A stretch of 39,670 nucleotides of DNA from Candidatus Cryptobacteroides merdipullorum. Its GTDB lineage: Bacteria; Bacteroidota; Bacteroidia; Bacteroidales; UBA932. The notes beneath the pieces are model-generated. The model was not told the origin of the DNA and ran no database searches. It saw only the letters and a program-made list of their open reading frames with translations. The position numbers and the translations under genes are program-made. Positions 38,091 through 39,670 of this stretch are shown piece by piece (position 1 is the stretch's first letter; every line of letters begins with the position of its first letter). The stretch is taken from the NCBI GenBank assembly GCA_018715685.1, contig DVLC01000005.1:1-39670 (forward strand), given 5' to 3'.

Positions 38091-38100
38091 AGGGGGGGGG
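38091..38100. repeat. Poly-G tract (G10) upstream of the DUF3575-like gene
   Basis: Ten consecutive G, 62 nt before the ATG at 38163. Confidence 0.9.
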
Positions 38101-38162
38101 TAAGTTGTTGAAATAATTTATATCCTTGCAGCAGCAAACAAGATTTAACAACTTACCCAGCA

Positions 38163-38747
38163 ATGAATTCGCGAATTTTCACCAAATTCGTCGTCATTTT
38201 TGCCGCATCAGCGCTTTCACTGCAGTCTCTCCACACCCAGAAGCTCGCGGTGAAGACCAACTTGCTGTCCGACGCCACGGCGACAATCAACCTTGGGGTC
38301 GAGGCCGCACTGGCACCGAAATGGACCTTCGACCTGTCCGGCAATTACAACGCCTGGGATTTCCCCGATTACCGCAAGCAAAAGCAGTGGATGGTGCAGC
38401 CGGAAGCGAGATTCTGGTTCTGCGAGGCTTTCAACGGCCATTTCGTCGCCGCGCACCTGCTCGGCGGAGAATTCAACATGGCCAATCCCTTCTTCCCTTT
38501 CAGCATGATCCGGACCCTCCGGGACTACAGATACGAAGGCTGGATGTACGGAGCCGGCATCGGCTACGGCTACCAGTGGATACTGTCGCCCCGCTGGAGC
38601 ATCGAAGCGGAAATCGGTGCGGGATATGTAGGCACCAAATACGAACAATATGAATGCATACGCTGCGGGGCGCTCGTCGATGAGGGATTCTCCAACAAGT
38701 TCTCTATCACCAAGCTGTCCCTGGGCATAATATTCATGATATTTTAA
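38163..38747 (+). CDS. DUF3575-like outer-membrane-associated protein
   Basis: LAVKTNLLSDATATINLGVEAALAPKWTFDLSGNYNAW...WMVQPEARFWFCEAFNGHFVAAHLLGGEFN. Confidence 0.85.
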   Translation: MNSRIFTKFVVIFAASALSLQSLHTQKLAVKTNLLSDATATINLGVEAALAPKWTFDLSGNYNAWDFPDYRKQKQWMVQPEARFWFCEAFNGHFVAAHLLGGEFNMANPFFPFSMIRTLRDYRYEGWMYGAGIGYGYQWILSPRWSIEAEIGAGYVGTKYEQYECIRCGALVDEGFSNKFSITKLSLGIIFMIF

Positions 38748-38757
38748 TCTCCGGACG

Positions 38758-39307
38758 ATGAAAAATCATACACGGAACATATTTACGGCCGCGTTGCTTT
38801 CAGGCATATTCTGTCTGGGCGCAGACGCGCAGGTTTCGTATCTCAGCCGCATCGAGTGGCAGGCGGAACCGGTGGAAATCGTGACGGAGTCCTCGGGTAA
38901 GGGGGGGGGCAAGAGCAGCTGAACTGAGGCTCAGGCTGGACTGGAAAGAGCAGCCGGAGGTCTCTGCGCAGCATTCTGCTGAAATCTTGCCCGTTCTGGA
39001 AAGCGCCGACGGCTCACAGTCCTGGAGTTTCTCGCCTATATATGTCGACGGCCGCACCCGTGCCAAGGCCGTCGACAGGAAGTCTGTGCTTTCAGGCATC
39101 GAAAGGCCTGAAGGGAGTATCGTACTGCGTCCCGGCAGGAAGGACGGCTCCGGCGGAACCATCGATTACTGCGCGCGGGTTCCCTATAGTCCGGACATGC
39201 TCGACGGGCGCATCGTGCTCTATGAAACCGTGAGCGGTTGCGCAGGCTGTCTCGAAGGCAGAGTGCTATTACAGTTCCGCTGCGTCCGGGATCATACCGG
39301 CAATTGA
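38758..39307 (+). CDS. Candidate phase-variable DUF3868-like secreted protein, frame OFF at G9 (early TGA at 38920-38922)
   Basis: Start MKNHTRNIFTAALLSGIFCLGADAQVSYLSRIEWQAEPVEIVTESSGKGGG; removing one G joins it to ...ELRLRLDWKEQPEVSAQHSAEILPVLESADGSQSWSFSPIYVDGR... through to 39307 with no stop. Confidence 0.75.
38901..38909. repeat. Poly-G tract (G9) inside the DUF3868-like gene
   Basis: Nine consecutive G; falls exactly at the frame switch. Confidence 0.9.
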
Positions 39308-39316
39308 CAAGATGAC

Positions 39317-39670
39317 CTATTTCAGTTTCTCCAGCTGTTCCCCGGAGAGACCGGTGAACTCCGTTACCTGGTTCACTGGCAACCCTGCCGACAGCATCCT
39401 CCTGGCGATCTCGGCTTTTCCCTCGGCAAGTCCGGCCGCATGACCTTCCGCGCGGCCTTCGTCCCTTGCGTAGTCGATCGTGTTCCTGTAGTCGTTCTCG
39501 GTCATCATATCGTTCTCGTATTGGTTCCTCTCCTCCTTCGTGTACGCCGCGATCTTCGCCGCCTCGAAAAGGCGCGCGAACACCCGCTCGCGCAGCGCCG
39601 CCGGCCGCTCCTCCAGCCGCGACAGGTTCTTCAGGGCGTACATCCACTTGTCGATGATCGGGCTCTCCCC
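39317..39670 (-). CDS. Rpn/PD-(D/E)XK nuclease family transposase-like protein, C-terminal part (5' end outside the window)
   Basis: ...ESPIIDKWMYALKNLSRLEERPAALRERVFARLFEAAKIAAYTKEERNQYENDMMTENDYRNTIDYARDEGRAEGHAAGLAEGKAEIARRML. Confidence 0.78.
   Translation of the reverse strand, partial: GESPIIDKWMYALKNLSRLEERPAALRERVFARLFEAAKIAAYTKEERNQYENDMMTENDYRNTIDYARDEGRAEGHAAGLAEGKAEIARRMLSAGLPVNQVTEFTGLSGEQLEKLK

Follow-up and report, generated by a model that had tools for sequence, protein, structure and literature searches.

The window analyzed here comprises the whole of contig C15 (39,670 nucleotides) of Candidatus Cryptobacteroides merdipullorum, whose 2.0-Mb draft genome is distributed in 149 contigs and is 82.6% complete. 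Close to the end of the contig, the forward strand shows two consecutive genes. The first (38163-38747) is intact and encodes an outer-membrane protein of 194 amino acids, which belongs to DUF3575 (PF12099, 227.6 bits against a cut-off of 21.1), as the first-pass annotation had proposed, and is 85% identical to its ortholog in Candidatus Cryptobacteroides avistercoris (locus L073; L042/G199 is identical DNA). The second gene is split, as assembled, by a coding tract of nine G residues (G9, 38901-38909, forward strand) that leaves its halves out of frame. The 5' part (38758-38920) encodes a signal peptide and the first strand; the frame opened by the ATG at 38758 gives 54 amino acids, ending in ESSGKGGGKSS at a TGA (38918-38920) located 11 nt beyond the tract. 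The downstream frame (38897-39307) stays open from 38897 until the stop codon that ends at 39307, and its 131-codon segment continues the same protein: query residues 50-170 align with the 495-amino-acid L073 ortholog with 62% identity. In the third frame, direct reading of the sequence shows a TGA at 38925-38927. Since the two other frames stop early, the halves of the gene are joined by only one of the three tract-length classes, and according to the frame analysis a change of one base in tract length switches the reading frame. The tract, its frames and the alternative open frame of about 182 codons agree with the first-pass annotation. Its assignment of the product to DUF3868 (PF12984) was not supported, as neither the window fragment (13.5 bits) nor the full ortholog (18.1 bits) reaches the gathering cut-off of 27 bits, and the domain is called DUF3868-like here.

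A further G9 tract (38092-38100, forward strand), overlooked in the first-pass annotation, is located 5' of the DUF3575 gene. The promoters of Bacteroidales show a -7 box with the consensus TAnnTTTG, and a candidate box of this type, TATCCTTG, was read from the sequence at 38121-38128 on the same strand. The upstream tract ends 20 nt 5' of this box, which is the expected -33 position, and no clear TTG is found there. The region also contains a perfect 12-bp inverted repeat with 37 nt between its arms: the left arm GGGTAAGTTGTT (38098-38109) overlaps the upstream tract and the right arm AACAACTTACCC (38147-38158) lies directly before the start codon at 38163. The RNA fold of this region has a z value of -2.6. 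The repeat may be what is left of an invertible promoter, or it may form a hairpin in the RNA; no recombinase gene was found beside it, and a working inverton was rejected as a firm claim. A scan for sigma-70 promoters and terminators, which is ill-suited to Bacteroidales promoters, returned nothing useful.

At the 3' side, homology with the 495-amino-acid ortholog ends at its residue 170 (39265), an early end that had also been overlooked, and is followed by a tail without homology (39266-39307). The OmpA-like/TPR half of the protein (ortholog residues 171-495) is absent at the locus and has no match elsewhere in the assembly. The homology stops 52 nt short of the C-terminal end of a gene encoding an Rpn/PDDEXK_2 family nuclease (39317-39670, reverse strand), which extends off the contig end and adjoins the truncated gene. 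Several copies of the nuclease gene are found in the genome, one of them with 85% identity at contig C68. The window copy is perhaps degenerate, because the OmpA/TPR half is missing and the gene ends beside the Rpn-type nuclease gene. An in-frame product would here be a fragment of about 182 amino acids lacking the OmpA/TPR half, or else the contig end would misrepresent the full locus.

In the orthologous operon of C. avistercoris, the second gene encodes 495 amino acids with a signal peptide, the DUF3868-like domain, an OmpA-like domain and TPR repeats. The search of relatives for other alleles, suggested in the first-pass annotation, found in this gene an in-frame G7 at the codon position matching the coding G9 of the window. 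Furthermore, a G8 is located 5' of the DUF3575 gene, inside a perfect 19-bp inverted repeat whose segment shows a promoter-like TTG-N20-TATCTTTG directed toward the divergent neighbor. Downstream of the second gene there is a gene for a lipoprotein of 509 amino acids, pilin-like by position only and without Pfam match, and then a Mfa2 pilus-anchor gene (PF08842, 91.8 bits). Because these lipoprotein and Mfa2 anchor genes lie downstream, the L073 locus appears to be a type V pilus-type operon, in line with the fimbrial context predicted earlier; the window contig ends before the positions where pilin and Mfa2 genes would stand. The AlphaFold model of the ortholog is modest (pLDDT 66.9, pTM 0.39). 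A fold search with it recognized the OmpA-like and TPR parts and gave no identification for the N-terminal domain, and the residues encoded by the tract are placed by this modest model in a loop of low confidence (46-53) that connects the first long strand with the second.

Run-length statistics indicate that such tracts exceed chance. The G/C runs of the window include 23 of length 5, none of lengths 6-8 and two of length 9. A first-order Markov null expects 0.32 runs of at least 9 (P = 0.03 for two or more, a value that leaves aside that both G9 tracts share one operon). Runs of exactly 7, 8, 9, and 10 number six, five, six, and two in the whole genome, and across the sampled loci the counts fall steeply from 144 runs of 5 to 19 of 6 and one of 7. 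The excess over chance is moderate from the window alone and strong with the genome-wide run-length plateau. In a survey of 12 Cryptobacteroides genomes of about 2 Mb each, in which gene classes are approximate (simple ORF caller), 37 of the 47 non-edge tracts of at least 9 were upstream, N-terminal (first 70 codons) or intergenic, vs 53 of 144 G5 controls (p = 6e-7). Moreover, a G/C run of at least 7 was found within 250 bp upstream of 15 of 46 DUF3575 genes and of 6 of 153 other genes from the same loci (p = 7e-7), an odds ratio of about 12 for DUF3575 genes against their neighbors. On the Markov null and these position statistics, an ordinary chance run was rejected. Among the tract-bearing genes are those for SusC-type receptors, Big_2 and BspA-like lipoproteins, a hybrid two-component sensor, GH127, DUF3575 proteins and a fimbrillin-like protein whose score is below the cut-off.

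A coding tract at exactly this site was found only in the window and C. avistercoris; the orthologs of G665 and Coprenecus do not show it. Tract length differs between close relatives, both at this site (G9 vs G7) and at other positions of related loci, in comparisons that are between species (one genome per species) and not between strains; two samples, each of about 400 genomes, contained no second genome of the species. Inside the DUF3575 gene, L013 shows a G9 in frame vs a G10 out of frame in L062, the two being about 80% identical and their coding sequences otherwise free of indels. Orthologous DUF3575 promoters also vary in tract length (C8 vs C10, and C9 vs C8). Locus L206 has the layout of the window, with two G9 tracts, one 13 nt 5' of a TATATTTG box and the other after the signal peptide. 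The tracts of L188, L197 and L206 are in frame, so that both frame states are represented among the loci.

Similar runs were observed in genes of other classes. In the genome of the window itself, a SusC-type receptor gene (G000:C80, L211:2944-3010) has a G10 and a BspA/Big_2 lipoprotein gene (G000:C143, L215:3001-3009) a C9, both out of frame right past the signal peptide. In L188 (2918-6007), a hybrid two-component sensor carries an in-frame G9 immediately after the signal peptide; a switch in this gene would affect an entire regulon. The DUF3575 promoters of seven loci (L043, L044, L045, L047, L049, L050 and L083) show poly-C or poly-G of 7-10 residues located 7-12 bases before a Bacteroidales-type TTG. 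A G16 at the end of G004:C61 (L177:3001-3016) and a G12 at the start of G010:C4 are contig-end runs, probably sequencing or assembly artefacts, and runs of this kind are best excluded from tract surveys.

Clear inverted repeats were also found in relatives: 19 bp in L042/L073, 16 bp in L230 and 18 bp in L071. In L230 and L071/L226, whose orthologous operons show no poly-G, the repeats of 16-18 bp lie in the promoter region 5' of DUF3575, and at this locus inversion may be the more ancient switch. In contig C87 of the genome of the window (G000:C87, L212:2952-3123), a C10 is found inside a 15-bp inverted repeat, which has a tyrosine recombinase gene (L212:2027-2941) on one side and on the other a gene whose C-terminal domain is DUF3575, a promoter region that appears to combine signals for inversion and slippage.

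Taken together, the two G9 runs of the window are homopolymer tracts that are probably hypermutable and belong to a surface operon of pilus type; slipped-strand switching is our best reading of them and of what looks like a genus-wide theme. Where the coding tract follows the signal peptide, replication slippage would add or remove one G, and the DUF3868-like mature part would thereby shift in or out of frame, each cell line making either an exported protein or a stub of 54 residues. The upstream tract would probably tune transcription by altering how the DNA is spaced where the promoter begins or ends. The tracts, their frames, the conservation, the recurrence and the differences among species are observed; both the switching back and forth and the transcriptional effect are inferred from sequence, and the case for the latter is weaker in the window, where there is no clear TTG at -33 and the tract overlaps the 12-bp repeat. 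In related operons, where the upstream tract lies within or beside an invertible promoter, there would be two layers of switching. As assembled, the window gene is in the OFF state and also lacks its 3' half, so that it may be a decaying copy within a functional family. The phase-variable gene proposed in the first-pass annotation is sustained in part: the in-frame G7 of the relative, purifying selection, the recurrence of tracts and the G9/G10 pair agree with it, but the protein made in the ON state would be incomplete, without the OmpA/TPR half.

Less probably, the second gene is a recent pseudogene, which would have lost its 3' half by rearrangement beside the Rpn-type gene and in which the G9 frameshift would be neutral or fixed. 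The end of homology at 39265, 52 nt from the nuclease gene, and the lack of the C-terminal half anywhere in the assembly, fit this explanation. However, the segment after the tract is neither accelerated nor unconstrained. Between the window and L073, dN is 0.25 and dS 1.31 over 112 codons, and differences at the three codon positions number 26, 20, and 59. With G665 as outgroup, the window has nine residue changes of its own and the intact ortholog 14, and the window-specific changes by codon position are 10, 7, and 25. The out-of-frame segment thus appears to evolve as if translated, under purifying selection, and since it is conserved like translated sequence, the frame break would be recent or reversible. 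Moreover, the intact ortholog also has a G-tract, a second tract stands upstream, and intact genes elsewhere carry similar tracts. Decay and phase variation can both be true, in the form of a phase-variable locus that has recently started to decay in this strain.

A consensus error at the G9 that hides an in-frame tract, or a chimeric contig end, is much less likely. The sequence is a draft metagenome assembly and poly-G artefacts are known at contig ends in the genus, such as the G16 of G004:C61; however, the contig end is 770 bases away from the coding tract and 1,579 from the upstream one, and the sequence flanking each on either side is coherent and homologous. A sequencing artefact of the contig edge was rejected for both tracts. 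Furthermore, independent assemblies carry tracts at the same positions, and G10 tracts are also found in G427, a single-contig member of the family. Long homopolymers can induce polymerase slippage, and slippage at the G-run during transcription or translation could yield the two products from DNA of a single, fixed length, but tract lengths differ among relatives and genes, and we consider this explanation the most improbable.

Slipped-strand switching, as preferred here, has close parallels in other bacteria. In the sortase-pilus operon of Bifidobacterium breve, an intragenic G-tract of 9-12 near the operon start decides the joining of frames (PMC9187656). As in the window, this is a gut commensal whose coding G-tract joins two frames, and equivalents of the B. 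breve tract occur across its genus (PMC9187656). Unlike the window, B. breve belongs to another phylum and has another pilus type, its slippage and pilus expression were measured where the window is known from sequence, and the portion of that paper available to us describes no upstream tract or invertible promoter (PMC9187656). The upstream tract resembles the C-stretch of the Bordetella pertussis fim2, fim3 and fimX promoters, whose length alters transcription (PMC1891110): both are homopolymeric C/G tracts in a fimbrial promoter region, although promoter type and tract position differ, and an effect measured in Bordetella would be presumed in the window. Neisseria, Campylobacter and Helicobacter also have contingency genes with poly-G within the frame of surface proteins, at several loci per genome; these are unrelated bacteria in which switching was demonstrated experimentally (e.g., PMC3786947, PMC8355987).

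In Bacteroidales, the phase variation reported is almost entirely inversion, and the surface loci that invertons make phase-variable include type V pili (PMC12632263, PMC11892184). They resemble the orthologous loci L073, L071 and G665, with inverted repeats of 16-19 bp around the DUF3575 promoter region, but work by inversion and not by slippage, and the window has just its 12-bp repeat. The words "slipped" and "homopolymer" are absent from a 2025 review of the group (PMC12632263), and for Bacteroidales we found no account of phase variation by poly-G in the open-access literature (subscription papers and preprints being outside this scope). Slippage itself is already known from Bordetella fim promoters and Bifidobacterium pili; new would be the Bacteroidales setting.

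More tentatively, Cryptobacteroides, and Bacteroidales more widely, could possess a poly-G contingency repertoire covering pilus operons, SusC transporters, lipoproteins and two-component sensors, in which some pilus operons would stack an invertible promoter, a promoter poly-G and a coding poly-G. If pili and nutrient transporters are indeed switched by poly-G slippage, cells would differ at their surface in ways hidden from inversion-finding software, and many "pseudogenes" of draft genomes would be OFF alleles.
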